Shown piece after piece: positions 4,660 through 44,968 of a stretch of DNA of 64,000 nt (position 1 is its first letter; the number at the start of each line of letters is the position of its first letter). Position numbers and translations under genes: made by a program. The stretch is from the NCBI RefSeq assembly GCF_004352855.1, contig NZ_SJSC01000004.1, positions 1-64,000 of the forward strand, in the 5' to 3' direction. Source of the stretch: Marinomonas sp. KMM3893 (GTDB lineage Bacteria > Pseudomonadota > Gammaproteobacteria > Pseudomonadales > Marinomonadaceae). Under the pieces are notes generated by a model. It searched no databases, had not been told where the DNA came from, and saw only the letters and a list, made by a program, of their open reading frames with translations.

Positions 4660-4769
4660 ATTACTTCTTTTCTTAAGGGAGTGAGTTTGGCAAAGCGTTA
4701 TTAGATATTCACACTATCTAAGTATTAAGGAGTTAAAACTCCACATCTAATAAGATGTAAAATTATTGC

Positions 4770-18943: not shown

Positions 18944-18945
18944 GT

Positions 18946-21900
18946 ATGATTTCTCAATTACTGAGTAATTGGCCTGAAGAGGGTGTGTCATTTGATCAAA
19001 AGAGGGCCGCGCTTCGTTTTTTTGTCCGAGGTTTACGTGCTGTTAAATACAAGCAAAATATAGAAGAGCCACTATTAAGCGTAGATGCTTTATTCCAGGA
19101 AAGCGTCTCGGCTGAAATTGATTTACATCTGCTGAAAACAAACGTCACAGGAAAATTTGAATCTAGAGCTGTGTCTACTTTAGCAACTATTGATGTTGCT
19201 ACTTACTATTCAGTTGAGCTGAGTAGGGTTCCATTATTAATGCAATCCGCTGTATTTATTTCACTATTTTCCCACAACAATTCACCTCGCGATAGTGTAA
19301 CTATTATGGAGGCAGCTGGAAATATTCGACGTTTGATCACGTCTAGTAGATTAATGATATCTGAAGTTCCTGATGGCTTGGATTTGTTGGAAACATTGGA
19401 ATATGTTGTACATTTGAACATCAAAAGAAATGCAGTCTCGTTTGTTTTTTTTAAACTTGTTAAACAAGGCTGGTCGGTTTTTACTCAGTTAAAAAGTGAT
19501 GTCCGTGCTGACATCATCCCACCGCGAAGAAAGCGACATCACAAGCCTCAGATTCAAACGCAGCCAATACCCTTTTCTGGTAATGAATTAACGATAGAGG
19601 AACCCGAAGAGAGCCAACACATTGAACTAGATGAAAGCTCTGTATTTCCAGTTCGTGCTGCACAGCGAGATTTATTTCGTAATAAAATCATTGAAACCAG
19701 AGAGCAGTTTGGTCTGCTGCTTTGCCCAGTTCGTTTATCATCTCTCGAAGTGCAAGGTGTTCGGAAATGGTTGAGTTCAGCGTCTGGCTCAATATCATCT
19801 GTATTAGCATCATTAGTGATGCTCACTGCGTTGAAAGAGCATGAAATTTTGGGGCTGCATGTTACTAATTTAACGACTGAAGTAGAGCCTCTAATGAGTG
19901 ATGGAGCTGTGTATGGTGTGGTTGATCTTCAAGCACATGTCTACTGGCGTAGAGAGCTTGATGTCCAAAACCGCTTTAGTCCTTCAGAAGAAAACTTACC
20001 TTGGTTAAATAATCATCAGCAATGGTTAGCTTTACCCATCCCTGAGCTTTTTATTGGAATTATATCTGGGGTAGTGCTCCATTCAGATCAATGTACAGTT
20101 GAGACATGGTTGGATCTCAGTAATGAAAAACAAGCAAAGGAGTTTCTTAATCATGCCTGTAGAGAAATTCGAGAAATAGGGCAATTACAAAGGCCTATTA
20201 GTAGAAGGGAGCTTCGTTACTGGCTATTTGCTTGTGTTGCAGATCGGTTCGGACAACATGTTGCGTCGTTAATTTTTGCAAATAACAGTTTTTCTAACTC
20301 GACAAGGCACTACTACATGGCTGCGAGTGCAGAAGATCTTCAGCGGCTCTTTGTACAAGCCATCAACCCATTTACACCAGTTGATATGTCCAGTGCCCGA
20401 GATGTTGATCAAGCAGGGATGGTAGGATCTCGTCTATCTATTTCAGTGGCTCGTTTTAAACAACGATTAGCAAGTAAGGTGAGCGCTTTAAATGAATTGT
20501 TGCTGACAGTTAAAACGGAAAAAGACCTTGAACAGCTAAGATATATTTATAATTTGATCGCAGCTTATACAGTGACCATGTTCGCGTGTGCTACTAGTCA
20601 TCGACGACACAATTCAATTTTTATTGAACACTCTTGTTGGAACTATGATTATTCACAGGTTCTTGTTGCTGATAAGATTTTCTTCGGTGAAAGTGCCGTT
20701 CGAATTATACCCGTTCCAGAAATGTTATCCTCACAAATCAGAAATTCTAAGGGGTGGGTTGAGCAAATTATTAAGCGCTTAATAGCTATACGACATCCTT
20801 TTTCTGAAATATTGATTGCGTCTTTATCCCGCAGAGGCAATACCCCTTTTCTTGGTGTTTGGGTGGGTGAGAATACGTTGACTACAGCTGGAACTTCGCA
20901 AATTTCAATGTGCTTAGGTGACGATTGGACACTTCCCCAAAATTGTATGCGACAGCTTTCTTATCAAGCCATGTTTCAGCAACCCCAATCATCTCAATAT
21001 TTAGATCATCAAATGGGGCATGTTTCATCCGCTCTTAATTCTTTTCAGAACACATCGTTAAGAAGCTTGCATGATGATGAGAAGAATTCACATCGAGACT
21101 TTATTGGGAATAGTTTAAACGAACTTGGTTTTGTGAATTTGAGGCGTACCAAATTTAGTGGCATTGCAAAGCTTGATGCCACTTATTTTTTGCCAGAAAC
21201 AATCAACGGTAATGACACTATAACGACTAAACAATTAGCGACAACCGCTCTAACTAGTGTTATGGCAGAGGTGAAAGCTACTAATAAATCAGTATATGAG
21301 CTTCTTGATGAAAAGCTTGCTGATCAACCATTTATACATGAAGAAGCGTTGAAACAATTAGAAGCCTTAATGATCGATGAGAATGGCAATCAGTTAGATG
21401 ATGAAACCTTTGAGCGTTTACTCAAAGGTGTATATTTCAAGAGCCCAAAAGTTGAAACGGTTTTTCCTTATAGAATGCACATGGCTGAGCATAGTCACCA
21501 AATTCTGTATGCTCAATTTATTGAGCTAGTTGCAGCTCTGTTTAATCAATATGAAGGTCTAGATAATGACTATTTAAAGTCGATATTATTAATATCTCTC
21601 ATATTTGATGGGGAAAATACAGTCGCTGATTTTTTAAAAATAAAGACTGAGAAATCCTTAATCATTGAAAATATTTCCTATAAGAACCATTATTTAACTG
21701 GCGATATTGAGAAGAAGCCTATCATCTTTTCAGGCATTAGTAGTGTGCTATTGATTCTATTGTTGAATAAATCGGATTCAAGAAGTGTAAAGTTCAACAT
21801 TGCACAACTTGATAAATGTCTTATCCTTCTAACTGGCCGAAAGCGTCAAAGCATTGCTGGAAATCTCCTAAACCTAATGCGTGACTTTGTTAATGTAGCT

Positions 21901-24207
21901 TTGCGCGAGCTTCAAGCTAATACCTGGAGTCTGGTTGGCTTGCTTAAACACATTAGTATTAATCCTCGACCAGGTGAAACTGGGGTTCTATTCGGGCTAC
22001 GTCAAGGTACGGTTAAAACGAAACACTTATCTTTTCATGCCTTGATGCGTTTGATATCACCAATACAGTTTTTTACGCTTAACAGTACTCAGGAGCTAGC
22101 CTCTGTCCAAGAGAGGGCATTGGAAAAACGATCCTATAAAACGACTAAGGACAAATCGTTTTACAAAGCGTTTTTTAAAGAGTTACCGCAAGCACTTGAT
22201 GAAGCAGATAACAATGCAAAGATGGGCATAAGAAGCTATTGGAATCATTTGATTAAAGATGGCAAGTCACGATCATCTGTTAGCGAGTTGGTAAATGACT
22301 CCAATTCGCTGCCTGAAATAATAGTATTGATTCTGTCCTGGCTACTTGAAGCGGCTTCTAGACATGGGCAGCGCGATACTGGGTTGCAGATATCGACAAT
22401 AAAAACATATTTATCTACGATTGGTCCTGCGTTGTGTGAGCTATGCTCGAATACATCATTACTATCATTAGACTACGACGACCTTATTGATGTTTATCAA
22501 GGTGTGATTGACATGGGAGAGCCGACTCACACGCAATCCAGATCAAAACGTTTGATGGACTTTCATAAACAATGCCGACGATATTTTCCATTTCCCAAAG
22601 TAGATTGGCAAGATCTGGATGTGCCATTAGTCGATGAAGCAATTACTCGAAATATCATCACGCATGTGGAATACGAAAGGGCGTTTAATCTTCTAGAAAA
22701 TGACCAATATCTAACCCCATCAGAGCAAGAATCTTGTCTTGCTGTTCTCATTATTAGTTATCGACTAATGACAAGACGTGGAGAAACTCGACGTCTAAGA
22801 GTAAACGACTGGTGTGTGCAAAGTGGTCTGTGTTCGGTGCGTAGTAATGTTTTTGGTAGTACCAAGACGGTTAAGGGGAATAGACGAATTCCTTACACTG
22901 TCTTAATGACAACAGATGAGCAAGAGCGAATTCACGGGTTCATTGAGAAAGCAAAGACGCAAAATGGCAATTCTCCATTATTTTGTGATTCATTGTTTCC
23001 AAACCGTATTCGAAGTATGGATAAAACATTCAATCGAGTAACAGAGGCCCTTCAACTGGCAACAGGTGATAAAAGTACGCGTCTTTATGATTGCAGGCAT
23101 ACGGGTATAAACTTTATTTCAACAGCATTGCAATTAAGTGATAGCCAGACAGATCCGATTGCCTTATCCATCAAGCGATGGTTGCCATGCGGTACTTTTG
23201 CAGAGTTTCAAGAGAGTTTTCGCCAAGCGACTATAGGCAACCCATCAACACGTCATGCCTTGTTACCAGCGTTGGCAATGATGGTCGGTCACAGTTCAGC
23301 GACAACCACCATCAGTAACTATATTCACCTGACTCATTATTGGAGATGGCTTGCGATAGAGCGAGAACTTAGATCTCTGAAAACCTTAGATAGCGGCTTA
23401 CAAGCTCTTGTTAAAATGCCTAAAGCACAATTTTTCCGACAGAAAAACAAAACAGGTTTATCTGCTGCTTATTGCATACTCGAAGATTTAATAACAAAGG
23501 GCGCCACAGCAAATCTTATTAGTGAAGAGGGAAGCCACTTTCCAGAACTAGAGTTAAGTGATATTGCGCAAGATACTCTTACTGCGAGGCTGGTATCGAT
23601 CAAAGACATTGAGCGGTCACTTAGAGTGCTGGAATACCTCAATGTGACCTCAGGTAGTAACGGTATTGATCTGAATGGTGAACAGGCCCAGTATGTGATT
23701 GAAAAGTCTGATTTAGAAACCAGCTTTGTGAGTCGTGTTTGGCAAGCCTATCAAGACACGTTAGAGAAAGATGTTGGCTATCGGGCTTTTTCCATTCCAG
23801 CTCGCCTCAATAATGTCGTGTTGCCTGATGCCTATCGTCCAAAAGCCGCTGAAGCATACCTATCTGACCCTGATTTTTGGGGACCCATAAAAGTATTACT
23901 TTCTCTTGATCAAACTACATTAAACCGTTTTTTATCCCTATGGGGGCACGCTTGGGATGCCTCAGACCGAGTGTGTAAAGTACCCGAAAATAAACGAGCG
24001 GAGTGGCAAGCTATTTTGGGGCGATTATCTTGGTATCCAGAGTTCAAGCCACAATCAGAGGTGAGAAGGCATCAGCATGGTATTCTAGTGAAATGTCATG
24101 AGTTAAGACTGCTAAGCAAGAATAGAGAAGAAGAGGGGGTGAGTATGTTGAAGCTAAGTCATGCCTTGTTCTTAATGACGTTACAGCAGAAGCTAGCATT
24201 GAGTTAA
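18946..24207 (+). CDS. Giant protein with C-terminal tyrosine recombinase domain
   Basis: About 1753 aa, roughly four to five times a normal integrase. Residues about 1245-1480 carry the tyrosine recombinase core: Arg1277/1278 in MTRRGETRRLR, Lys1307 in STKTVKGNRR, YDCRHTG with Arg1384 (the usual first His is Tyr), GHSS with His1449, and Tyr1459 in SNYIHL as nucleophile. Residues about 1150-1235 look like the N-terminal core-binding SAM-like region. A second stretch around residues 440-480 (ACVADRFGQHVASLI, then NNSFSNSTRHYYMAASAEDL) recalls a decayed GH..T..Y box, hinting at an inactive recombinase copy in the N-terminal half. The role of the first 1100 residues is unknown. Probably site-specific recombination for a mobile island. 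ATG 18946 is chosen over TTG 18940. Confidence 0.8.
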   Translation: MISQLLSNWPEEGVSFDQKRAALRFFVRGLRAVKYKQNIEEPLLSVDALFQESVSAEIDLHLLKTNVTGKFESRAVSTLATIDVATYYSVELSRVPLLMQSAVFISLFSHNNSPRDSVTIMEAAGNIRRLITSSRLMISEVPDGLDLLETLEYVVHLNIKRNAVSFVFFKLVKQGWSVFTQLKSDVRADIIPPRRKRHHKPQIQTQPIPFSGNELTIEEPEESQHIELDESSVFPVRAAQRDLFRNKIIETREQFGLLLCPVRLSSLEVQGVRKWLSSASGSISSVLASLVMLTALKEHEILGLHVTNLTTEVEPLMSDGAVYGVVDLQAHVYWRRELDVQNRFSPSEENLPWLNNHQQWLALPIPELFIGIISGVVLHSDQCTVETWLDLSNEKQAKEFLNHACREIREIGQLQRPISRRELRYWLFACVADRFGQHVASLIFANNSFSNSTRHYYMAASAEDLQRLFVQAINPFTPVDMSSARDVDQAGMVGSRLSISVARFKQRLASKVSALNELLLTVKTEKDLEQLRYIYNLIAAYTVTMFACATSHRRHNSIFIEHSCWNYDYSQVLVADKIFFGESAVRIIPVPEMLSSQIRNSKGWVEQIIKRLIAIRHPFSEILIASLSRRGNTPFLGVWVGENTLTTAGTSQISMCLGDDWTLPQNCMRQLSYQAMFQQPQSSQYLDHQMGHVSSALNSFQNTSLRSLHDDEKNSHRDFIGNSLNELGFVNLRRTKFSGIAKLDATYFLPETINGNDTITTKQLATTALTSVMAEVKATNKSVYELLDEKLADQPFIHEEALKQLEALMIDENGNQLDDETFERLLKGVYFKSPKVETVFPYRMHMAEHSHQILYAQFIELVAALFNQYEGLDNDYLKSILLISLIFDGENTVADFLKIKTEKSLIIENISYKNHYLTGDIEKKPIIFSGISSVLLILLLNKSDSRSVKFNIAQLDKCLILLTGRKRQSIAGNLLNLMRDFVNVALRELQANTWSLVGLLKHISINPRPGETGVLFGLRQGTVKTKHLSFHALMRLISPIQFFTLNSTQELASVQERALEKRSYKTTKDKSFYKAFFKELPQALDEADNNAKMGIRSYWNHLIKDGKSRSSVSELVNDSNSLPEIIVLILSWLLEAASRHGQRDTGLQISTIKTYLSTIGPALCELCSNTSLLSLDYDDLIDVYQGVIDMGEPTHTQSRSKRLMDFHKQCRRYFPFPKVDWQDLDVPLVDEAITRNIITHVEYERAFNLLENDQYLTPSEQESCLAVLIISYRLMTRRGETRRLRVNDWCVQSGLCSVRSNVFGSTKTVKGNRRIPYTVLMTTDEQERIHGFIEKAKTQNGNSPLFCDSLFPNRIRSMDKTFNRVTEALQLATGDKSTRLYDCRHTGINFISTALQLSDSQTDPIALSIKRWLPCGTFAEFQESFRQATIGNPSTRHALLPALAMMVGHSSATTTISNYIHLTHYWRWLAIERELRSLKTLDSGLQALVKMPKAQFFRQKNKTGLSAAYCILEDLITKGATANLISEEGSHFPELELSDIAQDTLTARLVSIKDIERSLRVLEYLNVTSGSNGIDLNGEQAQYVIEKSDLETSFVSRVWQAYQDTLEKDVGYRAFSIPARLNNVVLPDAYRPKAAEAYLSDPDFWGPIKVLLSLDQTTLNRFLSLWGHAWDASDRVCKVPENKRAEWQAILGRLSWYPEFKPQSEVRRHQHGILVKCHELRLLSKNREEEGVSMLKLSHALFLMTLQQKLALS

Positions 24208-24718: not shown

Positions 24719-26398
24719 ATGGAGAAAATCCAGCTCATGGAACCGACAGAAGTAAACGCAGCATCGGCTAAACCTGTAAAAACCCCTTCAGCAAAAAAGA
24801 AACCCACTAAGAAAAAACCAAGCAAAGGCTTTGAAGAAACCTTATGGGATACCGCGAACCAATTGCGCGGCAGTGTTGAATCCTCCGAATACAAGCATGT
24901 TGTATTGAGTTTAGTGTTCCTTAAATTCATCAGTGATAAATTCGAAGCCCGTCGCCAACAAATGATGGACGACGGTCAAGAAGCCTTTATCGAGATGAAA
25001 GAGTTTTACCAGCAAGACAACATCTTCTATTTGCCCGAAGAAACGCGCTGGTCTTATGTAAAAGTGCGTGCCAAGCAAGACGATATCGCGGTGATTATTG
25101 ATTCCGCCTTAGCCACCATAGAAAAGAACAACCCAAGTTTAAAAGGCGCACTGCCAGACAATTACTTCTCTCGCCAAAACTTGGAAGTAAAAAAGCTTGC
25201 GTCCCTTATCGACAGCATTGAAAACATCGACACCCTCGCCAACGAATGCGACACCACAGAAGAAGACCTAGTGGGTCGAGTGTACGAATACTTTTTGGGT
25301 AAATTTGCTGCCACAGAAGGCAAGGGCGGCGGCGAATTCTACACGCCAAAGTCTGTGGTGACCCTATTGGCACAAATGCTCGAACCCTACCAAGGCACAG
25401 TGTATGACCCTTGTTGTGGTTCTGGCGGTATGTTTGTGCAATCTTTGAAATTCGTCAAAGAGCACGAAGGCCGCAGTAAAGACATCGCCATTTATGGGCA
25501 AGAACTTACCTCGACCACCTACAAACTGGCGAAGATGAACTTGGCGATTCGTGGCTTGTCGGGCAACTTGGGTGAAAAGCCCGCAGACACCTTTTTCTCC
25601 GATCAGCACCCTGACTTAAAAGCCGATTACATCATGGCGAATCCGCCATTTAATCTAAAAGACTGGCGCAGCGAATCGGAACTTACAGACGATCCACGAT
25701 TTGCAGGCTACCGTACGCCGCCAACGGGCAATGCCAACTATGGTTGGATATTACACATGCTCTCGAAACTCAGCGAAACCGGCACCGCAGGGTTTGTACT
25801 GGCGAACGGCTCCATGAGTTCGAACACGTCAGGGGAAGGGGAGATACGCCAGCAGCTAGTGGAAAACGACCGCGTAGAATGCATGATCGCTTTGCCGGGG
25901 CAGTTGTTTTACACCACACAAATTCCTGTTTGCTTGTGGGTTATCAGCAAAGACAAAACTGCGAACGCAAGCAAAGGTTTCCGCAACCGCGAAACCGAAA
26001 CCCTATTCATCGACGCCCGTGAAATGGGCTCCATGATCAGCCGTGTACACAAAGACCTCACTGTGGATGATCTCGCGAAAATCGCCGACACCTTCCACGC
26101 CTGGCGCAGCAGCGATGAAGCCTTGAAACAACGCGTGGCAAGCGGCGACTGCAAAATCAGTGAATACCAAGACCTTGCAGGCTTCTGCAAATCCGCCACC
26201 ATAGAAGACATCAAAACCAACGACTATGTACTCACACCGGGCCGTTACGTGGGCGCTGCTGAGATTGAAGACGACGGCATTCCCTTTGAAGTGAAAATGC
26301 GCGAACTCAGCCAAACCCTTTATAGCCAAATGAAGCAAGCGGAAGAGCTTGATAAAGCCATTCGCAAGAATTTAGAGGGGCTGGGTTATGGAGAGTGA
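24719..26398 (+). CDS. hsdM: Type I restriction-modification methyltransferase subunit
   Basis: A 559-aa N6-adenine DNA methyltransferase. After a Lys/Ala-rich leader (about residues 14-36), the N-terminal HsdM helical domain begins at FEETLWDTANQLRGSVESSEY. The catalytic domain shows FYTPKSVVTLLAQML, motif I YDPCCGSGGMF (about residue 230) and motif IV NPPF (about 310). The C-terminus DKAIRKNLEGLGYG fits HsdM. A second in-frame ATG at 24737 is possible. It overlaps hsdS by 11 bp. With HsdS it methylates the host site, and with HsdR it forms the restriction complex encoded about 6 kb downstream. Confidence 0.95.
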   Translation: MEKIQLMEPTEVNAASAKPVKTPSAKKKPTKKKPSKGFEETLWDTANQLRGSVESSEYKHVVLSLVFLKFISDKFEARRQQMMDDGQEAFIEMKEFYQQDNIFYLPEETRWSYVKVRAKQDDIAVIIDSALATIEKNNPSLKGALPDNYFSRQNLEVKKLASLIDSIENIDTLANECDTTEEDLVGRVYEYFLGKFAATEGKGGGEFYTPKSVVTLLAQMLEPYQGTVYDPCCGSGGMFVQSLKFVKEHEGRSKDIAIYGQELTSTTYKLAKMNLAIRGLSGNLGEKPADTFFSDQHPDLKADYIMANPPFNLKDWRSESELTDDPRFAGYRTPPTGNANYGWILHMLSKLSETGTAGFVLANGSMSSNTSGEGEIRQQLVENDRVECMIALPGQLFYTTQIPVCLWVISKDKTANASKGFRNRETETLFIDAREMGSMISRVHKDLTVDDLAKIADTFHAWRSSDEALKQRVASGDCKISEYQDLAGFCKSATIEDIKTNDYVLTPGRYVGAAEIEDDGIPFEVKMRELSQTLYSQMKQAEELDKAIRKNLEGLGYGE

Positions 26399-27728
26399 GT
26401 GGCCGTTACAACCATTAGATAGTTTAGTCACGATTCATGACTCAAAAAGAAAACCTATAAAAAAATCAGAGAGAAAAGCTGGTCCTTATCCTTATTACGG
26501 TGCATCAGATATAGCAGATTATGTTGATAGTTATGCCTTTGATGGGCTTTATCTTCTTCTCTCTGAAGATGGTGATAACTTAAGAACTAGGAATACCCCA
26601 ATTGCATTTACGGCAAGCGGTAAATTTTGGGTTAATAATCACGCTCATGTATTACAAGGATCTGATGATTTAGATACCATTTTTTTATGTTATGCATTGC
26701 AGTATGCAGAAATAGATAGCTATATTTCTGGTTCGACGAGACCTAAAATCACTCAGACAGACTTAAAAAAAATTCCTGTTAGAGCTCCTAGTATGAAAGT
26801 TAGGCATGCAATTGCGGAATTTGTATATGACTTTGATAACAAAATCTCCCTTAACCGCCAAATCAATCAAACCCTAGAACAAATGGCGCAGGCCTTGTTT
26901 AAATCGTGGTTTGTGGATTTTGATCCTGTGATCGACAACGCTTTAGATGCAGGCAACCCCATTCCAGACGCCTTGGCCGAACGTGCCGCATGTCGCCAAG
27001 ACGCTCGCGCCAGCGATGACTTTCAACCTTTACCAGATGATGTACGACAACTTTTCCCCAGTGAATTCGAAGAGAGTGAACTTGGGTGGATTCCGAAAGG
27101 GTGGAATGATGTAACGCTTCATGATTTAGTCGAATCAAAGTCTGTTACTTATCCTCTTAAAAGTGTTAAGGAAGTTGTGTTCTTAAATACTGGAGATATT
27201 GAAAATGGCCAATTTTTACACAGAAATATCTCTAAAGTAGACGGTTTACCAGGGCAAGCAAAAAAATCCATTAAGGAAAAAGATATTTTGTTTAGTGAAA
27301 TACGCCCAAAAAATAAACGCTTTGCCTTTGTTGATTTTAATTCAGAGCAGTATGTTGTTTCTACAAAATTAATGGTTTTAAGAGCTAAAGCTGGAATCGA
27401 ACCAGAGCTGCCATATTTCTTACTGACATTAGAAAAAACAACAGATGAGCTTCAGCGTATTGCAGAATTACGATCAGGTACCTTTCCACAAATAACATTT
27501 TCTGAACTGGCGTTTATTAATTTTAGCCTGCCATCAAACATGGCTTTAATTGAGAAGTTTGTTTCTCAAACATTAAAGCCTTTTTATAGGAGAGTATCTC
27601 AGTTAGCAGTCGAAAATAGTTCGTTAGAGTCACTTCGTGACACCTTACTCCCCAAACTCATTTCCGGTGAGTTACGTTTGGATTCTGTCGAAGTTGAACA
27701 GGCCAAAAGCCTGCTTGATGGTGAGTAA
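26388..27728 (+). CDS. hsdS: Type I restriction-modification specificity subunit
   Basis: A 446-aa protein with two target-recognition domains, about residues 1-145 and 225-400. The central conserved helix (KISLNRQINQTLEQMAQALFKSWFVDFDPV, about residues 155-185) and the C-terminal one (SLRDTLLPKLISGELRL) act as spacers. Each TRD reads one half of a bipartite DNA site. The TRDs are visibly richer in A and T than the conserved central part (26840-27110), as expected where recognition domains have been swapped by recombination. The recognition sequence cannot be read from this. Confidence 0.93.
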   Translation: MESEWPLQPLDSLVTIHDSKRKPIKKSERKAGPYPYYGASDIADYVDSYAFDGLYLLLSEDGDNLRTRNTPIAFTASGKFWVNNHAHVLQGSDDLDTIFLCYALQYAEIDSYISGSTRPKITQTDLKKIPVRAPSMKVRHAIAEFVYDFDNKISLNRQINQTLEQMAQALFKSWFVDFDPVIDNALDAGNPIPDALAERAACRQDARASDDFQPLPDDVRQLFPSEFEESELGWIPKGWNDVTLHDLVESKSVTYPLKSVKEVVFLNTGDIENGQFLHRNISKVDGLPGQAKKSIKEKDILFSEIRPKNKRFAFVDFNSEQYVVSTKLMVLRAKAGIEPELPYFLLTLEKTTDELQRIAELRSGTFPQITFSELAFINFSLPSNMALIEKFVSQTLKPFYRRVSQLAVENSSLESLRDTLLPKLISGELRLDSVEVEQAKSLLDGE

Positions 27729-27747
27729 AACGAGACAGTCAATGGGC

Positions 27748-27787
27748 AATACAACGCCAAATATAGAAGACTATTTGGTGTTGTATT
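27748..27787. terminator. Long stem-loop after hsdS
   Basis: AATACAACGCCAAATA pairs with TATTTGGTGTTGTATT: 16 bp with one G-U pair and an 8-nt loop. No U tract follows, so it may be a terminator variant, an RNA-stability element or a scar at the edge of the inserted three-gene block. It is by far the strongest structure in this gap. Confidence 0.6.
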
Positions 27788-27847
27788 ACCGCCGGTAATT
27801 GAATAACGTTTTTTCGCTATTGCGGCAAGATGTGCGCAGGCTAGAGT

Positions 27848-29251
27848 ATGTATCTTAATCAATTTTTTACTGACTACGACGAGACCATCACCCAATCTTT
27901 AAATATTGACCCATTAGGCATGACCATGATTTGGTCGAGCTTGGGTCAAGCCATTTTCAATAATCGTGTGAGCTCAATTTCGAATGATGTGCGCAATTAC
28001 ACGCTCAATCTCGTGCATCATTATGTGATAAAAACCTTAGTCGACAGTGTTGATGCCAAGTTAAGCGGCGAGCTAGAGAAGGTCTATGGACAAATAGACA
28101 GCTTGGCTTTTAAGCAAACGTGTTTGATATTTCTCGAAAACGTTTTTGTCTTTTCCATGCTGGCCGCAGAATCGGCAGAAGATGTGCAAACACAAGGCAT
28201 TTTGGGGGCATCAAAAGCACGCTTAAAGATTTCTCAAAATACGACCAAACGCATACCCAAAGCACCCCTTATTTTCACCCGAGACTCGCAAGAGCAGCTT
28301 TTGGTTCGACAGCTGACCTTAGGTGTCAGTGGCCGATATAAAACCCCTTTTATCGAATTATCCTTTTTTGACAAAGCGCTTCGTTATCATCAACCCCACT
28401 CTATTCCACAATGGGAAAACGCCCAGGCGTTTATTGTCTCTCATAAGGGGTTGCGCCAATTGGCTGAGACATCTGTTTCGTTTCTAAAAGCATTCATCAA
28501 ACAAAACCATTTTAAACCCCGTGTGAGTTGGCAAGACATTCCCGAAGCCATAAAGCGCCAGTATGTTGAATGCTTTGCTTCTTCTGAAGTGGTGGGAAGT
28601 TACAGCAAAGACTTTTGGTTGAAGGTGACGGCGCTGGATCAAAAAGCCTCTGGTTCGCTTTATCAGGCCATTAGTGAGTTGGGCAGTGACCATTCTTCTG
28701 CTCAAGTGTATTTTGAGCGCGCTCTTCAGCTAGAAACCGATGATCAAGAAAAGAAGAGGCTCAATGATATTTGCCAAGTGGAGCCTTTTCTCGCGGAGTG
28801 TGAGCTGTTGTTTACCGTATTGATGAGTCAAAAGCTTCAGACAGAGAAAGAGGTTTACGATACCTACTGTGGTTTAAAACGAAATGTGAGTTCAATCATC
28901 ACGCTTGCACGAGGTTTAGCGACTCTTGATGTGAAATGGTCAGATTCTGCTAGAAAGCGTTATGAAACATTGCTCGAAATGAGAGAGCTGGAAGGTAGTG
29001 ACGCACAGGCGAATATGACGGTGCTGGTGGATAAACTACTCCAATATCACCACAATATTATGGCGCAGAGAGGGCAGAGCCCTTGGGTCGAAAAAGATCG
29101 TCAGGGAAATTATCGGTGTCATGTGGCGCTTCGAAGTCTTCCCGAGCCAGAGAGAAGGCCGTATAAATCTTGGTATCATAGGTATTATCTTGACCAATTT
29201 AGCCAGTTAATTCGCGGCTTAGAAGGAAAGGGTCATGACGCAAACATTTAA
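27848..29251 (+). CDS. Uncharacterised protein of an RM-embedded three-gene cassette
   Basis: A 467-aa protein without recognisable domain, signal peptide or membrane segment. It is mainly alpha-helical by eye, with a long N-terminal helical part (TLNLVHHYVIKTLVDSVDAKLSGELEKVYGQID) and a C-terminal region rich in aromatic and basic residues (PERRPYKSWYHRYYLDQF). It overlaps the PLD-like gene by 17 bp, so the two are co-translated. By position it is a partner of the PLD-like nuclease and the SNF2-like helicase that follow, all placed between hsdS and hsdR. Confidence 0.7.
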   Translation: MYLNQFFTDYDETITQSLNIDPLGMTMIWSSLGQAIFNNRVSSISNDVRNYTLNLVHHYVIKTLVDSVDAKLSGELEKVYGQIDSLAFKQTCLIFLENVFVFSMLAAESAEDVQTQGILGASKARLKISQNTTKRIPKAPLIFTRDSQEQLLVRQLTLGVSGRYKTPFIELSFFDKALRYHQPHSIPQWENAQAFIVSHKGLRQLAETSVSFLKAFIKQNHFKPRVSWQDIPEAIKRQYVECFASSEVVGSYSKDFWLKVTALDQKASGSLYQAISELGSDHSSAQVYFERALQLETDDQEKKRLNDICQVEPFLAECELLFTVLMSQKLQTEKEVYDTYCGLKRNVSSIITLARGLATLDVKWSDSARKRYETLLEMRELEGSDAQANMTVLVDKLLQYHHNIMAQRGQSPWVEKDRQGNYRCHVALRSLPEPERRPYKSWYHRYYLDQFSQLIRGLEGKGHDANI

Positions 29252-31202
29252 AATGACGGATGCCTTAAAGCAGCAAGTTCAAGATTTAGGGACGCTAAAA
29301 TATGCTTGGTTTACCTCTTTTAATCTAAATGTGGACTTTTTCGAACGCCACGTTTTGTCTACGCTGTTGGAAATGGAGCCTCCTCGAAGTCGGATTGATT
29401 TTGAGCTGATGCAGCAAAAGCTTAATGGTTCCGTATTAGACAATAGAAAAGCGGGGCCTAGTATTGATGTTAAAGTGTTTGCTGATCAGAGAATGTACGA
29501 TGCCAATGACGTTAAGCGCACGGCAATAGAGGTGTATGGCGTTGCTCCGGTTTCCATGACTGGCGTGAGGAAAAGTCGTCTGGATAAGAGTTCTTTATTC
29601 CACCCCAAGGTGATCTTTCTTCAGGACGATCAGGGAAAAGCTATTTTAGGGGTAGGCAGCGCCAATTTAACGCAAAGTGGTTGGTCAACAAACCAAGAAG
29701 TCTTTTCTTTTCATCAGGTCGAATGTGCCCATCAAGCAGAGGCAATACGATGTTTTTTTAAACCACTCTTCAAATTTAATGCTATCAAACACCCATTTAA
29801 GTTTGGAAAAACGTTAAGAAAGGCGCCAAGCCCATCCGATTGGTATTTTGTGCATACCTTTTTGAATGCGGAGCGTGGCTCTGAACACACTTCTCTTCTT
29901 GGGCATCTTTTGAATGAGCCAAATACAAAGGAACTTGTTGTCTGGTCGCCTTACTTTCCGAGAGACTTAGCTGGGTTTATAGACCGCCTTCGAGGCATCC
30001 ATTCCAGTGAGGAGTTGACCGTGTGTTTGATTCCAGATTTGGTTGAAAATAAACAAATGCGTACGGAGTGGTCTTCTTCCTTAAATGACCAGATTAATGA
30101 TCAGCAATTACGGTTTTATCGAAACCCTGTTCAGCCAGATGAACGCAGCGAGCTATGCCACGCTAAGGTCTGGATGACGGAGCACAAATTGGCTATTGGT
30201 TCTTGGAACTTTACGGCTCCGGGTTCCAATATTGCACTTGAAGAGGGCGAATCTGGTCATGTGAATGTGGAGGCCGGTGTGGTGTTTAACCATACCCAGC
30301 CATTAACGGATGTGCTGAAAGAGTCTTTGACTATTGGTGAAGGTAACTTCATGGAAAGCGTAGAGCTAAATGCGCATGCCCTTGAGGTGGCTGAACTTTT
30401 GCCTGTCAATGTGAGAGTGTCATTTGATTGGGAAACACTGACTTACAATTTAGCCGCTGAAAAGGTGGATAAGAGCCAAGTTTTACAAAGCGTAGAAATA
30501 CGCTTGCCTGATATTATCGGGCCCATATCTTTCGTCTTTGAGACGGATGGCGCTGCTCTTGAACTTAATAAAACGTTGACGGTTGAACCAAGCGAATTAC
30601 TGGTTAATCACACTTATGAGTTGATCATAAACAGCGATCAACGATACCGTTGTTTCATTGTTGAACACAATAGTGTCATGCGTCGTGTGGAGCAGTTTGA
30701 CTCGTTAGATGAAATTTTTGACTGTTTAATCTCTGGTCAACCGCTTGTGAATCACCCAAATGCCTCATTGCGAGAGAGCATTTTAAACAATGACCACGAT
30801 CTGCTCATTGAGCAAGAAGCAGGCTCTTTGGGCTCCCAATCCGCCCCTTCGGCGTTAAGTTATTTCCGAATGTTTCAAGCGATGCATGAATACGAGAAGC
30901 GCATTCAGTTGTCGAAGTCAGACGTCATGATTGAGCAGTATGGCTTTGTCATTCCTGGGTGTCTCATTGAGATGAAGAACAGAATCGAGACAGAGCTAGA
31001 CCGAGAGATGAATGTGTTCAATTGGTATATGGCGCAGGAGTTTAATCGATTAATTAAGTTGGCTAAGTGTAAAGCGAAAGCACCAAGCTTAGAAAAGCGC
31101 TTAAGTTCGCTTAGTCTCCGCGACTTGGATAAAGCAAAGGACATAGGCAGTCATAAATATCGTAAATTGATCAAGAAAAAGAGTGATTATGTCACTATCT
31201 AA
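29235..31202 (+). CDS. Phospholipase D-like nuclease
   Basis: A 655-aa protein with two PLD (HKD-type) motifs. The first is HPKVIF (about residue 122) with GVGSANLTQSGW about 20 residues later; the second is CHAKVWMTEHKLAIGSWNFT (about residues 307-323). Two such motifs form one active site through a phospho-histidine. In defence loci these proteins are usually nucleases (for example DrmC of DISARM). The C-terminal third is unassigned. It overlaps the gene before and the helicase after, indicating a tight operon. The family is secure; nuclease activity is inferred. Confidence 0.82.
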   Translation: MTQTFKMTDALKQQVQDLGTLKYAWFTSFNLNVDFFERHVLSTLLEMEPPRSRIDFELMQQKLNGSVLDNRKAGPSIDVKVFADQRMYDANDVKRTAIEVYGVAPVSMTGVRKSRLDKSSLFHPKVIFLQDDQGKAILGVGSANLTQSGWSTNQEVFSFHQVECAHQAEAIRCFFKPLFKFNAIKHPFKFGKTLRKAPSPSDWYFVHTFLNAERGSEHTSLLGHLLNEPNTKELVVWSPYFPRDLAGFIDRLRGIHSSEELTVCLIPDLVENKQMRTEWSSSLNDQINDQQLRFYRNPVQPDERSELCHAKVWMTEHKLAIGSWNFTAPGSNIALEEGESGHVNVEAGVVFNHTQPLTDVLKESLTIGEGNFMESVELNAHALEVAELLPVNVRVSFDWETLTYNLAAEKVDKSQVLQSVEIRLPDIIGPISFVFETDGAALELNKTLTVEPSELLVNHTYELIINSDQRYRCFIVEHNSVMRRVEQFDSLDEIFDCLISGQPLVNHPNASLRESILNNDHDLLIEQEAGSLGSQSAPSALSYFRMFQAMHEYEKRIQLSKSDVMIEQYGFVIPGCLIEMKNRIETELDREMNVFNWYMAQEFNRLIKLAKCKAKAPSLEKRLSSLSLRDLDKAKDIGSHKYRKLIKKKSDYVTI

Positions 31203-33897
31203 TTGGGCAAGGATTACCCCTCAAGAAGTATCAAAGCAGATGAGTTTTGTAGAAGGCGATAAAAGCTGGGCATACAAAGCGGACCAAAACCATTCTATGG
31301 CGGCCAAGCAAGCAGAGGGTGTCGCTTACTTATGTCGATTATTGCATCAGCACGGTCTTGCCTTACTCGCTGATGAAGTGGGCATGGGAAAAACCTTTCA
31401 AGCCATCGGGATTATTCGCCTGTTACAGCAAGTAAAACCGGATGCCAAAATATTGGTGATTGCCCCCAATAAAGGTCTCTGTATTCAATGGATAGGGGAG
31501 TTTGATACATTCGCGAAAAGTCATTGGCGCGGAGGCAGTACAGAGCCTCTTAAGATTGCAGAGCCTCAATCCCAGCTTGAAGATATGGTTAACTTGATCG
31601 ATAAAGAGCATCATGTTTACTTTACGACGATTCATTCTTTTAGTGGCTTAGCGGACAGTGAAAACGGAAAAATTGCGCAGGCAGAGAGCAAAGCTAAAGC
31701 GCTAAATAACCGTGTGATGGAGGCTTTAGGCGGGGAAGGGTTTGATCTTTTAGTGATCGATGAGGCCCATTATTTACGAAATATAGAAGGCGGCTCGCAA
31801 AGAGTGGCCGCTGCAAAAGCGTTTTTTGGCGAAGGGGACGAAGCGCTGGCAAAGCAAGTGTTGCTGATGACAGCGACGCCCACCCATTCATCGGTAAATG
31901 ATGTCGCCAATATCCTTGGTTATTTTGCCCCTGACAGTGAATTGAAAAACAGTGAAACACAAGCGCCTTATGATGCATCAGACCTGTTAACAAGGTACGG
32001 ATTAAGACGGCACCGTCTTTTAGAAGGCGCTAGTGGTCGTCATTATGCTAAACAACATTATCGTAAAGAGACTGTACTCCCTGTTTCTTTTTCTGGGAAT
32101 CAGAACGCAGAGCTCTTCTTCGGGCTTTATCAACGGGAATTAGTAAGGAAAGTTCAAGGCAAGGGAGCTAATCGACAGTTTCTCTATGGTTATCTTGAAG
32201 GGTTTGAATCCTTTGGTGAGGATAAAGATCAAGCTGATAAAGCTAAACAAGAGAAAAAAGAGAAGCAGGACAAAGAAAAGACTAATAGTGCGTTTAAGAA
32301 AGCGGCAGATACTGAGCTTCTGGCTTGTTTGAGTCGAGAATATTATGAATATTATGAATGTTTTGGAGCGTTTCCAGAACATCCAAAATACAAAGCCTTA
32401 GTGGATCATTTTGTTCCAAATCAACTGAATCACACAAAGCTGGATAATATTAAACACCTTGTATTTGTTCGTCGTATCCCTTCTGTTAGGGAGCTTACTA
32501 AGCGGGTTAATTCACGTTATGACAAGGTATTTGGCGATCAAATATCCGAGGCACTTAACTTAAGCAAGGCTCAAAAGCAAGAATGGCAGAGTACTCAGTG
32601 GAGTCGGGTTTGGCTGAACAATCAGTTCAATAAAGAGAATGATCCTACCGGACAAGACGCTCTTACAGATGAAAAAGAAGATGGCGCCGATCTTGATCAG
32701 TCGAATAACAGCGATAACTACTTACGGTCACGGATCACCGAATTGTTCGTTGTTAAAAAGCGTGATGAAGAAAATCTGCAGGAAACTCAGAACACGGTGT
32801 GTACGAATATCGCGCTGCGCTTTAGAAAGCCTGAAAGTATTTTTTCTATGTTTTTGGAACCCGCTTTGGATTATCTGGAAGAAGATTACCCCTATTTTTG
32901 GGAGGCTCAGAGTGGTCAGAGTAAGCGAGCGATGTACGCGACAGCGGCACATCACCAGCGTGCTGAGCGGTATTCGTTTAACGTGACTGATTCTAAGGGC
33001 AATGAGAAAAAGGAAGAAGAGCCACTGCCTACTATCTGGAAGTACTTAGTCAATAAGTTGAACGATAAAGAAAAAAGTACACTAAATAGCTGGGACCCAT
33101 CGACCAAAGAAAACTTTTCGAACTATTTTAAAGCCGGTGTGTTGTTTGCCAGCCCCGTTATGATCGAGCTTTTTTGTTGGCTATATATATTTGATAACGA
33201 TGTAAGTTTGCATAAGCGTGGTGAAAGTGCCCAACAGCGTTATAAGCGCTTCATCAAAGATTTTTCTGAGAAACTGTCAAAATCAATGCTTCTGTGGTAT
33301 TTCAAAGCGGCACTGACAACGTTTGAAGATGTGTGTAGAAAGGTTGCTCGTGTGGCGTTAGATAACATAGAGAATGACTGGCATGAGCTTAAAGCGCACA
33401 GCTCTCCTGCAGCCTATGCGAGTGGTGAAAGCTCTAATAGAGAAAATTTACAGCTTGGGTTTAATACGCCTTTTTATCCGAATGTGCTGGTGGCGACGTC
33501 GGTTTTTCAAGAGGGTGTCAATTTACACCTTCAATGTAATGAGGTGCATCATTATGGCCTGGCTGGCAGCCCAGGGAGTCACGAACAACGCGTAGGTCGT
33601 ATAGATCGCTTATTCGGCAAAGTGAATCGCCAGTATAAAGATCAACAGCAAAGTGAATTGAGAATAAACTTTCCGTATTTAGAGCATTCCTTTGATGAAG
33701 ATCAGCTAGCTTCTTTCCTAGAACGTAAAGTGAAGGCTGAAAGTAAATTAGACAAATGCTTAATGGATGACACTGATTCACGAATAGGGACAGAGAAGTC
33801 GTATGAATGGAAGTCTTACTTGAAACAACCAGAACGGACAGAAGACAGTACCATTGAAGATCCGTATCCCGCGATATTTTCTGAAGAGAAAGAGTAA
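31189..33897 (+). CDS. SNF2-like superfamily 2 helicase/ATPase
   Basis: About 902 aa. The N-terminal ATPase lobe has a Walker A-type motif ADEVGMGKTFQAIGI (about residue 62), the DEAH box VIDEAHYLRN (about 190) and motif III LLMTATPTHSS. A charged, lysine-rich coiled stretch lies at about residues 345-365. The C-terminal lobe carries motifs V and VI (LVATSVFQEGVNLHLQ, HEQRVGRIDRL). The family translocates on double-stranded DNA. I start it at ATG 31189 with AAAGAG upstream (GTG 31183 is possible). It overlaps the PLD-like gene by 14 bp. It resembles the helicase of DISARM-like systems but lacks the DrmA/DrmB partners. Confidence 0.85.
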   Translation: MSLSNWARITPQEVSKQMSFVEGDKSWAYKADQNHSMAAKQAEGVAYLCRLLHQHGLALLADEVGMGKTFQAIGIIRLLQQVKPDAKILVIAPNKGLCIQWIGEFDTFAKSHWRGGSTEPLKIAEPQSQLEDMVNLIDKEHHVYFTTIHSFSGLADSENGKIAQAESKAKALNNRVMEALGGEGFDLLVIDEAHYLRNIEGGSQRVAAAKAFFGEGDEALAKQVLLMTATPTHSSVNDVANILGYFAPDSELKNSETQAPYDASDLLTRYGLRRHRLLEGASGRHYAKQHYRKETVLPVSFSGNQNAELFFGLYQRELVRKVQGKGANRQFLYGYLEGFESFGEDKDQADKAKQEKKEKQDKEKTNSAFKKAADTELLACLSREYYEYYECFGAFPEHPKYKALVDHFVPNQLNHTKLDNIKHLVFVRRIPSVRELTKRVNSRYDKVFGDQISEALNLSKAQKQEWQSTQWSRVWLNNQFNKENDPTGQDALTDEKEDGADLDQSNNSDNYLRSRITELFVVKKRDEENLQETQNTVCTNIALRFRKPESIFSMFLEPALDYLEEDYPYFWEAQSGQSKRAMYATAAHHQRAERYSFNVTDSKGNEKKEEEPLPTIWKYLVNKLNDKEKSTLNSWDPSTKENFSNYFKAGVLFASPVMIELFCWLYIFDNDVSLHKRGESAQQRYKRFIKDFSEKLSKSMLLWYFKAALTTFEDVCRKVARVALDNIENDWHELKAHSSPAAYASGESSNRENLQLGFNTPFYPNVLVATSVFQEGVNLHLQCNEVHHYGLAGSPGSHEQRVGRIDRLFGKVNRQYKDQQQSELRINFPYLEHSFDEDQLASFLERKVKAESKLDKCLMDDTDSRIGTEKSYEWKSYLKQPERTEDSTIEDPYPAIFSEEKE

Positions 33898-34025
33898 TAA
33901 AAGAGTATTTCAAAAACGATGTAAAATATCGCTTACGACGAGCGGTTAAAAGGCTTGCCTGGCGTAGTGTAAAGTGAGACTGTAAATACGCAGTACGAAC
34001 AAGGACATAGAGGGAATTTTTAGGC

Positions 34026-37000
34026 ATGGTTGCAGTGGTTCGCGACATTAAATTTACCGAAGCAAGATTAGAGCAAGCTATTATCGAGTTACTCGGTGAG
34101 CAGGGCTATCCCCATGTTCTGGGTCAGGACGTGGCGCGAAACGAGCCGTCTCAAGTATTGATTCTGGACGATCTACGACGTTATCTGTCTAAGCAGTATC
34201 AGCAAGACGGCATTACGCCCAGCGAAATCGAATCCATTATTCGTCAGTTACAGAGTTTACCCGCCAGCGACCTTTACCGAAGCAACAAAACCTTTTGTCA
34301 TTGGTTAGCAAATGGTTTTTTGTTTAAACGAGAAGACCGTAACCAAAAAGATTTGTACATTGAGTTGATCGACACACAGCAACTTAATGCCGCTCTCGCT
34401 CAATTATTCAACGTATCAGAGACGTTGGCCGACGAGGCTGATTTACAACAAGTCGCTGATCCTGTGCCGCCTTATTTCCTTTCTCCGTCGAACGTATCTT
34501 CTGACTCGAATGTTTATAAATTAGTGAATCAACTTGAAATAGAAGGCGTCGATGGGCAAATGCGCATTCCCGATGGCATTTTATATGTGAACGGTTTGCC
34601 GTTGGTCGTGTTTGAGTTTAAGTCTGCGGTACGAGAAAAAAGCGCTTCGGTTTATGATGCGTGGAAACAAATTTGTATTCGCTATAAACGCGACATTCCA
34701 CAACTCTTTGTTTATAACGCCTTTACCATCATCAGTGATGGCGTGAATAATAAGCTTGGTAACCTGTTTGCGCCTTACGAATATTATTATGCGTGGCGCA
34801 AGGAAACTGGCTTTGAATCTGCCGAAAAAGACGGCATTAATTCCCTTTACACCATGATCCAGGGTTTGTTCAACAAGACGCGATTATTGGACGTGGCGAA
34901 GAACTTTGTCTTCTTTCCCGACACCACGAAAAAAGAAATCAAGGTGTGTTGTCGTTACCCTCAATATTATGCGGCTCGCAAGCTGTATTTTAATATTTTA
35001 AAGGAACGCAAGCCCCAAGGCTCAGGTAAGGGCGGCACTTACTTTGGTGCGACAGGCTGTGGCAAAAGCTACACCATGCAGTTCTTGTGTCGTTTATTGA
35101 TGAAGAGCATCGACTTTGAAAGTCCCACCATTGTCTTAATCACGGATCGTACCGATTTGGACGATCAGCTTTCTAAGCAGTTTGAAGACGCTACTAACTA
35201 CATTGGTGACGACACCATTGTGTCGGTCAGCAGCCGTGAAGATTTGCGGGCTAAGTTACAAGGTATCAAGAGTGGTGGCGTGTTTCTGACGACCATCCAT
35301 AAGTTTACCGAAGACCTGCAATTACTCTCTGAGCGCACCAATATCATTTGTATTTCAGACGAAGCTCATCGTTCTCAAGTGAATCTCGACAAAAAAACCG
35401 TGATCAAATACAGCGAAGGCAAAGCCATTTCGATGAAAGAAACCTACGGCTTTGCCAAGTATTTGCACGACTCTTTGCCGAACGCCACTTATGTAGGTTT
35501 CACCGGCACGCCCATAGACGCCACGCTGGATGTATTTGGCCAAGCCATCGACAGCTACACCATGACCGAAGCGGTGAACGACGAAATCACGGTTCGCATT
35601 GTCTACGAAGGCCGCGCCGCGAAAGTCTTTTTGGATAATAGCAAATTAGCGGAAGTTGAAAAATACTACGACGATTGCGCCGCAGAAGGCTCCAGTGAAC
35701 ATCAAATAGAAGAGAGTAAAAAAGCCTCGGCCAATATGAATGCGATTCTGGGCGACCCTGACCGCATTGACGCCTTGGCGAAAGACTTTGTTTTCCATTA
35801 TGAAAGCCGAGTGAACGAAGGTTCTTCTATTAAAGGCAAAGCCATGTTTGTCTGCTCGAACCGTGAGATTGCCTATGATTTTTATAAAGCGGTTAAAGCA
35901 CTGCGACCAGTTTGGTTTGAAAAACGCCAAACCGCCGATGAGGTTGAGTTAACTGAGAAAGAACAAAAAGAGCTTATGTCTCTGGAACGGGTGCAAATGG
36001 TAATGACCCGTAACAAAGATGACGTAGCCGAGATGTATCAGCTGGTCGGGACAAAAGATCATCGCAAAGAACTGGATCGCCAATTCAAAAATGCGAAATC
36101 CAATTTCAAAATCGCCATCGTAGTGGACATGTGGCTTACTGGGTTTGACGTGCCAGAGCTAGATACCATTTACATTGATAAGCCGTTACAGAAGCATAAT
36201 TTGATTCAAACTATTTCTCGGGTAAACCGTAAGTTTGAAGGCAAAGAAAAAGGCTTGGTGGTGGATTACATCGGCATTAAATCTCGTATGAATCAAGCCT
36301 TGGCCATGTATTCCAAAGCCGACACAAGCAGTTTAGAAGATGTGAATTTGTCGGTCGTGGAAGTAAAAAACCACTTGGATTTACTCAAGCAAATGTTTCA
36401 CAGCTTTGATGTTTCACCGTATTTTAGTGACGAGCCACGTTTGCAATTGGAGTGTTTAAACCAAGGGGCCGAATTCGTCTTACAAACCAAAAAGGGTGAA
36501 AACCGTTTTATGGGCTTGGTTAAGCGTTTAAAAGCCGCTTACGATATTTGCTGTGGCAGTGATCGTATTGATCAAACCGAACGCAACCTGATTCATTTTT
36601 ATATCTCCGTGCGGTCTATTGTCTTCAAATTAACCAAAGGCGACGCCCCCGATACTGCGCAAATGAATAACCGCGTAAGAGAACTAATCGCCGAAGCACT
36701 TAGAGCGGATGGGGTGGAAGAGATTTACACCATTGGCGAAGACAAAGCCGACGCCATCGATATTTTCGATGAAGAATATTTAGCGCGGATCAATAAAATC
36801 AAACTGCCTAACACCAAGATTCAACTGCTGCAAAAAATGCTGCAAAAAGCCATTAGTGAATTTAAAAAAGTGAACCAAGTGAAAGGCATCGACTTTTCCT
36901 CACGTTTTGAAGCCTTGGTAGAACAATACAACGAACGCCGAGAAAACGATGAACTCAACGGCGAAGAGTTCGACACCTTTAGCCAAGAAATGACCGACAT

Positions 37001-37337
37001 GATCTACGACATGGCAAAAGAAATGGGCTCCTTTGCTGACCTCGGAATCGACCTAGAAGAAAAAGCCTTCTTCGACATCTTAGAACACATGCAAAAGAAA
37101 TATGACTTTAGTTATGATGCTGGCAAAATGCTTGAACTCGCTAAAGCCATGAAAGTCATCGTCGACGATGTCTCCAAATACCCAGACTTTGCCAAACGCG
37201 ATGATATTAAAGCCACACTCAAAGTTGATTTAATACTGCTGCTACATAAATACGGATTCCCTCCCGTCGCCAACGACGACGTGTACAAAAGCGTGTTAGA
37301 GCAGGCGGAGAACTATAAAAAATACAATTCGAATTAG
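34026..37337 (+). CDS. hsdR: Type I restriction endonuclease subunit
   Basis: An 1103-aa motor and nuclease subunit. The N-terminal PD-(D/E)xK nuclease shows PDGILYVNGLPLVVFEFKS (about residues 180-200). The SF2 translocase has Walker A FGATGCGKSYTM (about 338), DEAHRS (about 443) and VGFTGTPID, with motif VI near QTISRVNRKFEGKEKG. A helical C-terminal region binds the HsdM/HsdS core. The length fits the family. It lies 128 bp after the helicase gene with its own ribosome site. Codon use resembles that of hsdM rather than the three genes between, supporting an inserted cassette. Confidence 0.95.
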   Translation: MVAVVRDIKFTEARLEQAIIELLGEQGYPHVLGQDVARNEPSQVLILDDLRRYLSKQYQQDGITPSEIESIIRQLQSLPASDLYRSNKTFCHWLANGFLFKREDRNQKDLYIELIDTQQLNAALAQLFNVSETLADEADLQQVADPVPPYFLSPSNVSSDSNVYKLVNQLEIEGVDGQMRIPDGILYVNGLPLVVFEFKSAVREKSASVYDAWKQICIRYKRDIPQLFVYNAFTIISDGVNNKLGNLFAPYEYYYAWRKETGFESAEKDGINSLYTMIQGLFNKTRLLDVAKNFVFFPDTTKKEIKVCCRYPQYYAARKLYFNILKERKPQGSGKGGTYFGATGCGKSYTMQFLCRLLMKSIDFESPTIVLITDRTDLDDQLSKQFEDATNYIGDDTIVSVSSREDLRAKLQGIKSGGVFLTTIHKFTEDLQLLSERTNIICISDEAHRSQVNLDKKTVIKYSEGKAISMKETYGFAKYLHDSLPNATYVGFTGTPIDATLDVFGQAIDSYTMTEAVNDEITVRIVYEGRAAKVFLDNSKLAEVEKYYDDCAAEGSSEHQIEESKKASANMNAILGDPDRIDALAKDFVFHYESRVNEGSSIKGKAMFVCSNREIAYDFYKAVKALRPVWFEKRQTADEVELTEKEQKELMSLERVQMVMTRNKDDVAEMYQLVGTKDHRKELDRQFKNAKSNFKIAIVVDMWLTGFDVPELDTIYIDKPLQKHNLIQTISRVNRKFEGKEKGLVVDYIGIKSRMNQALAMYSKADTSSLEDVNLSVVEVKNHLDLLKQMFHSFDVSPYFSDEPRLQLECLNQGAEFVLQTKKGENRFMGLVKRLKAAYDICCGSDRIDQTERNLIHFYISVRSIVFKLTKGDAPDTAQMNNRVRELIAEALRADGVEEIYTIGEDKADAIDIFDEEYLARINKIKLPNTKIQLLQKMLQKAISEFKKVNQVKGIDFSSRFEALVEQYNERRENDELNGEEFDTFSQEMTDMIYDMAKEMGSFADLGIDLEEKAFFDILEHMQKKYDFSYDAGKMLELAKAMKVIVDDVSKYPDFAKRDDIKATLKVDLILLLHKYGFPPVANDDVYKSVLEQAENYKKYNSN

Positions 37338-43120: not shown

Positions 43121-43768
43121 TTAATCGCCAATTAATCTCTTTTCCCATATTTTGAAAGGAGTCTGGTTCTTAAGTTGGATTAATTCCTTGCCTACGATTT
43201 CAATATTGAGGTTTTTATAAACCTTAGCTGTGAGATCAACGCAAAACTCATAATCGTTAGTATTTGAGTGTTGCTGATAAAGCTCTAAGCTACTGTAATA
43301 ATTGGTTTTTTTGTTGAAATGCTGTACTAATTTTAAGCAATGCTCCTTAATTTGGATGTCAGTGATGGCGTTTATACGTTCGAATAATGATAAATAAATT
43401 TTATTGTTTGGCTTTACAGTCTGGCTTTTATTTAAAAAAGTTATTTCAGAATTTAGTGTGTTATTAGTCACTGACTCATACCACGCTAAGTAAAAAAAGT
43501 ACCCATGTTTATAGTTCTTTACAGCAGCCTCAAGCATGATGTAGTCGTTTACCTTTTTTTCTAGCCGCTGAAAATTATCACCAAGTAGACGGAGCTCTAA
43601 TTCACCAGTTCCTTCAATATCGGTGATAATTGCTACGCGCTGGGGGTAATTGCTTTCATTATGAATGACGTTTAACTTTTTCAAAAAATAACACCCCTTG
43701 AATCGGACTAGATTACTAATATCATCTAAATCTGGTTGGGTGGCGGAGCGAGCTTGTAAGTTACGCAT
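43121..43768 (-). CDS. Uncharacterised protein downstream of integrase
   Basis: A 215-aa soluble protein that I do not recognise. It has no signal or membrane segment, is rich in Asn, Lys and Tyr, and shows alternating beta (RVAIITDIEGTGELELRLLGD) and helical segments. Its start overlaps the integrase stop by 8 bp, so it is co-translated with the integrase. It may be integrase-associated or cargo of the element. A strong terminator closes it. Confidence 0.7.
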   Translation of the reverse strand: MRNLQARSATQPDLDDISNLVRFKGCYFLKKLNVIHNESNYPQRVAIITDIEGTGELELRLLGDNFQRLEKKVNDYIMLEAAVKNYKHGYFFYLAWYESVTNNTLNSEITFLNKSQTVKPNNKIYLSLFERINAITDIQIKEHCLKLVQHFNKKTNYYSSLELYQQHSNTNDYEFCVDLTAKVYKNLNIEIVGKELIQLKNQTPFKIWEKRLIGD

Positions 43769-44966: not shown

Positions 44967-44968
44967 AA

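Follow-up and report, generated by a model that had tools for sequence, protein, structure and literature searches.

Gene content of the locus

The window analysed here is a 64,000-nucleotide stretch of the Marinomonas sp. KMM3893 genome, and it contains a type I restriction-modification (RM) operon in which three open reading frames, referred to here as genes A, B and C, are present between hsdS and hsdR (27848-33897; Table 1). Gene A overlaps gene B by 17 bp, and B overlaps C by 14 bp when C is counted from the ATG at 31189, which gives a protein of 902 residues and aligns with the start used in L006, another locus carrying the trio; a GTG upstream, at 31183, would give 904 residues. Between hsdS and gene A is a stem-loop of 16 pairs including one G-U, with arms at 27748-27763 and 27772-27787 and a loop of 8 nt; the 76-nt stretch that holds it folds at -25.3 kcal/mol (z = -4.84), which is unusually stable for its composition and is equalled by 0 of 200 shuffles. 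An exact-seed inverted-repeat search missed this element because the G-U pair interrupts the 9-base seed. The initial annotation had described three genes overlapping by 14-17 bp between hsdS and hsdR, a two-HKD PLD-like protein and an SNF2-like helicase among their products, and a 16-bp stem-loop ahead of them; this description is borne out by the reading frames and their Pfam-typed flanks, by both HxK...GSxN motifs in gene B, by the Pfam SNF2-rel_dom and Helicase_C domains and the DEAH motif in gene C, and by the pairing and shuffle statistics of the stem-loop.

Table 1. Coordinates of the cassette, the host RM genes and the neighbouring sequence elements in the window
Feature	Position	Strand	Details
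hsdM, type I methyltransferase	24719..26398	+	Pfam N6_Mtase 359 bits + HsdM_N
hsdS, specificity subunit	26388..27728	+	Pfam Methylase_S, two stretches
degenerate direct repeat, left copy (spans hsdS stop)	27705..27755	+	local alignment
stem-loop, hsdS-gene A gap	27748..27787	+	fold z = -4.84
gene A, PDC-M27A	27848..29251	+	467 aa; PADLOC PDLC04552 583 bits over 1-461; all-helical model
gene B, PDC-M27B	29235..31202	+	655 aa; PADLOC PDLC04553 734 bits; Pfam PLDc_2
gene C, PDC-M27C	31189..33897	+	902 aa; PADLOC PDLC04556 1221 bits; Pfam SNF2-rel_dom + Helicase_C
degenerate direct repeat, right copy (upstream of hsdR)	33949..34000	+	local alignment
hsdR, restriction/translocation subunit	34026..37337	+	Pfam HSDR_N, SWI2_SNF2, T1RH-like_C

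The stem-loop was considered as a part of the cassette and rejected, as it was not seen upstream of those other copies for which folding was computed; the gap between hsdM and gene A in locus L011 does hold a hairpin, but a different one, and no similar stem-loop was found in the hsdS-hsdR gaps of three relatives with an empty site. The cassette is also flanked by a degenerate direct repeat of 52 columns, for which 1 of 1000 shuffles scored as well when wider regions were compared and 75 of 1000 when the gaps alone were used; since several comparisons were made, the repeat is suggestive at best of a terminal repeat of the cassette.

The surroundings of the operon hold further genes. Directly 3' of hsdR is a full-length Hhe anti-phage protein (37403-43042, + strand), with a DUF4011 helicase and a C-terminal nuclease domain, that scores 2598 bits (NCBIfam cut-off 2000). 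On the right, the defence region is bordered by a phage-type integrase (Arm-DNA-bind_2, Phage_integrase) and a small gene at 43121-45044 on the - strand. Upstream of hsdM, two overlapping genes (18080-24207, + strand) encode proteins of 287 and 1755 residues, neither with a Pfam match; a region of the larger one resembles the catalytic part of tyrosine recombinases (CRHTG...GHSSATTTISNY), and on this likeness the island may be moved by it, as a large integrase of unusual type. Alternating copies of tRNA-Asp and tRNA-Val lie at the start of the window, five at 28-834 and two more 3.7 kb on, at 4583-4845.

Predicted properties of the three proteins

Gene B encodes a putative nuclease of the PLD family with two HKD motifs and an extra C-terminal region (about 382-655). 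The catalytic residues, H123/K125/N144 and H309/K311/N325, are invariant in 22 sequences, and the predicted structure (pLDDT 82) is a two-domain PLD pseudodimer over residues 1-381, for which the nearest folds are the 5' exonucleases PLD3 and PLD4, and Tdp1 (Z 19-21); further matches of the model are three PLD restriction enzymes, NgoAVII, BfiI and SauUSI. Gene C is, by sequence, predicted to be an SNF2-type SF2 translocase, with likeness to RapA and chromatin remodellers; its Walker A motif DEVGMGKT (62-69), the DEAH box (191-194) and motif VI, QRVGRxDR (800-807), are conserved in 16 sequences. Gene A has no Pfam domain, and its all-helical model, which is fairly confident (pLDDT 82.8), gave no Foldseek match with E < 0.001; a second fold comparison returned scattered helical matches with Z of at most 5.1, from which novelty of the fold does not follow. 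A search of PDB sequences with gene A and gene B profiles found no match. Two sequences from plasmid records were left out of the inputs to structure prediction.

The trio matches the catalogued candidate system PDC-M27

The top matches of all three proteins in PADLOC-DB are PDC-M27A, B and C, nearly full length in each case: residues 1-461 of gene A align with positions 1-458 of 460 in PDLC04552 (E 6.7e-176), gene B covers 1-633 of 635 in PDLC04553 (E 2.8e-221), and gene C, whose frame overlaps that of gene B, covers 1-890 of 892 in PDLC04556 (E 0). The next-best PADLOC matches are ZacB (31 bits) and DrmC (20 bits) for gene B, and ZacC (90 bits), BrxHI (66), DpdE (59) and DrmD (57) for gene C. 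Because all three proteins match, the trio is already catalogued, and as judged by these profiles it is a member of the candidate defence system PDC-M27; the PDC entries of PADLOC are predictions. A full-text search covering part of the literature found no paper that names PDC-M27.

Distribution of the trio

In a sample of 398 Pseudomonadota genomes, the two that have gene A are also the two that have gene B, an agreement far beyond chance; besides the genome of the window, the one with the trio is that of L006. A pattern derived from gene A, run against GTDB genomes, returned at least 24 loci in Alpha-, Beta- and Gammaproteobacteria, and the trio was also found on three plasmids, two of Vibrio nigripulchritudo and one of Rhodoferax. 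In addition to the window we mapped 27 loci, among them one of the two Vibrio plasmids, and in 22 of them A, B and C are consecutive on one strand with overlapping or abutting frames, so that the three genes do co-occur elsewhere; in one of the 22 (L031) gene A is split while B and C are intact. The remaining five comprise three that are cut off by contig ends (L012, L016 and L022) and two that are broken: L029, where gene A is spread over two frames and gene B lies close to the contig end, and L032, with only a piece of A. The occurrence of A and B in the same genomes, together with the conserved consecutive order, indicates that the trio is one functional unit. No relatives of the trio were detected in viral contigs, in phage records (queried with gene B) or in E. 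coli genomes (searched at the DNA level). Since the trio is rare (two of the 398 genomes), conservation cannot separate anti-phage from anti-plasmid defence.

Other defence genes lie close to some copies: Septu and a type I RM system in L011, a piece of Hhe in L022, the DruE gene of a type III Druantia in L021 (3318-9677), and a UG17 reverse transcriptase in L007 (20325-21392).

We searched the flanks of these loci (at most 10 kb, less where the contig was small) for RM neighbours, using HsdM, HsdS and HsdR of the window and three further sets as queries. Type I RM genes were found within about 10 kb of the trio in three of the 27 loci (L011, L022 and L025), all of subfamilies other than that of the window; the search for the trio outside RM loci that had been proposed with the initial annotation did find it there. 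In L011 (1210-15970) the order is hsdR-hsdS-ptuA-ptuB-hsdM, followed by A-B-C about 55-67 bp after hsdM; here the Septu pair, PtuA and PtuB, separates hsdS from hsdM within a type I RM operon. In none of the 27 does the trio lie within an hsdS-hsdR gap, so that of 28 loci the window alone has this arrangement. With none inside hsdS-hsdR and only three near RM genes, the trio appears to be a self-contained unit, and its distribution does not sustain the suggested link with the RM enzyme.

The hsdS-hsdR gap as a cargo slot

Among close relatives of the window's hsdR, hsdS often lies directly upstream. Five genomes of the same genus have an HsdR 66-86% identical to that of the window and hsdM and hsdS in the same order; in three of them the hsdS-hsdR gap is empty (117 bp in L052, 75 bp in L053 and 83 bp in L054), in L055 it is occupied by a RhuM-Fic gene, and L056 has four genes there: a RhuM-Fic gene, an AAA ATPase gene and two unknowns. 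In farther relatives the gap is empty (L070, an E. coli chromosome, L058, and a Klebsiella plasmid, L059) or filled by genes other than the trio (L067, L068 and L071); L069 was assigned to neither group. The cargo of L055 is flanked by a 58-bp duplication, 97% identical, of the 5' end of hsdR (12213-12270 and 13314-13371), which judging from the sequence is likely the trace of an insertion. RhuM/Fic-like, DUF1016/YhcG nuclease and Schlafen AlbA_2-type genes recur in the hsd operons of L055, L056, L067 and L068, where such cargo is also found between hsdM and hsdS.

The hsdS-hsdR slot is a published defence hotspot (PMC12255303), and other systems occupy comparable positions in type I RM operons: PrrC sits inside the EcoprrI operon, whose enzyme controls it (PMC3874165), DarTG2 lies with RptR inside a type I RM operon (PMC12255303), and TgvAB of Vibrio cholerae is found in a type I RM cluster and gives protection when expressed in the absence of that cluster (PMC11411939). 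The proteins of these three systems are unrelated to the trio, and of the three only PrrC is described in these papers as controlled by the RM enzyme. Compared with the other members of PDC-M27, with which it agrees in full-length matches of all three proteins, gene order and overlaps, the window copy shows no substantial difference except that it is embedded between hsdS and hsdR, unlike all 27 other loci.

Relation to DISARM and Azaca

DISARM (DrmA, DrmB, DrmC, DrmD, DrmM) combines a PLD protein with an SNF2-type helicase, as the trio does, but it also has DrmB with its DUF1998 domain, DrmA and a dedicated methylase, all three of which the trio lacks. That DrmA and DrmB are missing, as the initial annotation had noted, is confirmed, for DrmB in the genome as a whole: no protein matches DUF1998/MZB, the DrmB domain, in a search that found matches in 8 of 14 control genomes, and none of the trio proteins is DrmA or DrmB, gene C scoring 29.5 bits with a DrmA model against 1221 for PDC-M27C. 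There is no methylase within the trio either; the only one nearby is hsdM of the surrounding RM operon, whose relatives occur without the trio. Membership in DISARM is ruled out by the lack of a DUF1998/MZB protein in the genome and of DrmA in the trio. We regard as very improbable a reduced form of DISARM, with C standing in for DrmA/DrmD and B for DrmC: the weak matches of C to DrmD and DpdE and of B to DrmC, far under the curated NCBIfam cut-offs, would speak for it, but PDC-M27 scores are more than tenfold above those of the Drm models, and both the DrmB domain and a methylase are wanting. The earlier proposal of a distinct anti-phage system stands in that the trio is a separate three-gene unit and not DISARM, but not in the sense of an uncatalogued one, as PADLOC already lists it.

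Azaca (ZacA, ZacB, ZacC) is reportedly a validated system, described by Millman et al. 2022. It is the closest validated relative of the trio: it has three genes in the same order, a first gene, a PLD gene and an SF2 helicase gene (L037-L040), and the helicase C-terminal lobe of ZacC is homologous to that of gene C (hhalign probability 98%, E 1.4e-14), a lobe common to many SF2 helicases. A PLD-like domain is listed for Azaca (PMC10952713). A strongly diverged Azaca, with gene A a ZacA homologue that has lost all recognisable similarity and the trio functioning exactly like Azaca, would account for these likenesses and for ZacB and ZacC being the best PADLOC matches of B and C outside PDC-M27; we consider it unlikely. 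ZacA is a DUF6361 protein, and no DUF6361 match was found in gene A or in the whole genome by a family search that does find it in G154 and G223; profile comparison of gene A with ZacA gave non-significant probabilities of 4.5% with the full-length proteins and 0.9% when restricted to their N-termini. A by-eye N-terminal likeness (DxLG...SSIxxxxR), which had made gene A a candidate ZacA/DUF6361 homologue, failed in both comparisons and was discarded. Gene B shares only the HKD region with ZacB, aligning over 41 columns around one HKD motif (probability 22%; 31 bits against 734 for PDC-M27B), ZacC is longer than gene C (about 1050 against 902 residues), and PADLOC lists PDC-M27 and Azaca as separate systems. 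As gene A is not detectably related to ZacA, membership in Azaca is not claimed, but by analogy the trio may well work like Azaca.

Proposed function

Taking the evidence together, we think it likely that the cassette represents PDC-M27 as a portable candidate anti-phage system of three genes, that it reached the hsdS-hsdR gap as a recurrent cargo slot, and that it works as follows. From the motifs and models, the trio most likely acts as a DNA translocase with a PLD nuclease, independently of RM methylation. Gene C, the SNF2-type translocase, would load on invading or replicating phage DNA and move along it with ATP; gene B, the two-HKD phosphodiesterase of the phospholipase D type, would be the nuclease, either recruited to that DNA or set free on it; and the helical gene A protein could be an adaptor or recognition partner, a role that is a guess because it has no recognisable domain or fold. 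The three proteins presumably form a complex, and its putative effect would be anti-phage. Self would probably be told from non-self by DNA structure or a phage product rather than by the RM methyl mark, since a unit that has no methylase and stands alone in most genomes argues against the reading of such a mark. Hachiman is an established nuclease-helicase pair that senses DNA damage (PMC12278908).

Two other readings bear on the setting of the cassette and on its target. Functional coupling to the RM enzyme in the manner of PrrC and EcoprrI, with the cassette held inactive or triggered when the type I complex fails, has a precedent in the type IC operon EcoprrI, whose enzyme sequesters the PrrC inside it (PMC3874165), and the trio does follow hsdM closely in L011 and has type I RM genes nearby in L022 and L025; it is nevertheless improbable, because those RM systems belong to other subfamilies, the window is the sole locus with the trio inside hsdS-hsdR, and the same slot in relatives holds unrelated genes. 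More doubtful still is its fuller version, drawn by analogy with PrrC, in which the trio of this strain would be read from the RM operon and kept silent or steered by the type I enzyme, phages that block RM would trigger it as a DNA-degrading second line, and gene A would be a new sensor fold. A module for DNA repair or plasmid exclusion rather than phage defence could likewise be imagined, as an SNF2 translocase with a PLD/Tdp1-like phosphodiesterase could process protein-linked or damaged DNA and Tdp1 is among the nearest folds of the gene B model; we give this small weight in view of the patchy, rare spread over three proteobacterial classes and plasmids, the defence genes in the neighbourhood, and the lodging of the trio in a slot for defence cargo.

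The portable candidate system thus remains the preferred reading, and the trio is a catalogued candidate in a known defence slot. The relatives with an empty site in the same genus make both PDC-M27 and the slot readily testable. Should PDC-M27 prove functional, it would join Azaca as another trio that combines a PLD protein with a helicase. Its first subunit differs from that of Azaca, and the role of this subunit would then be directly comparable between the two systems.
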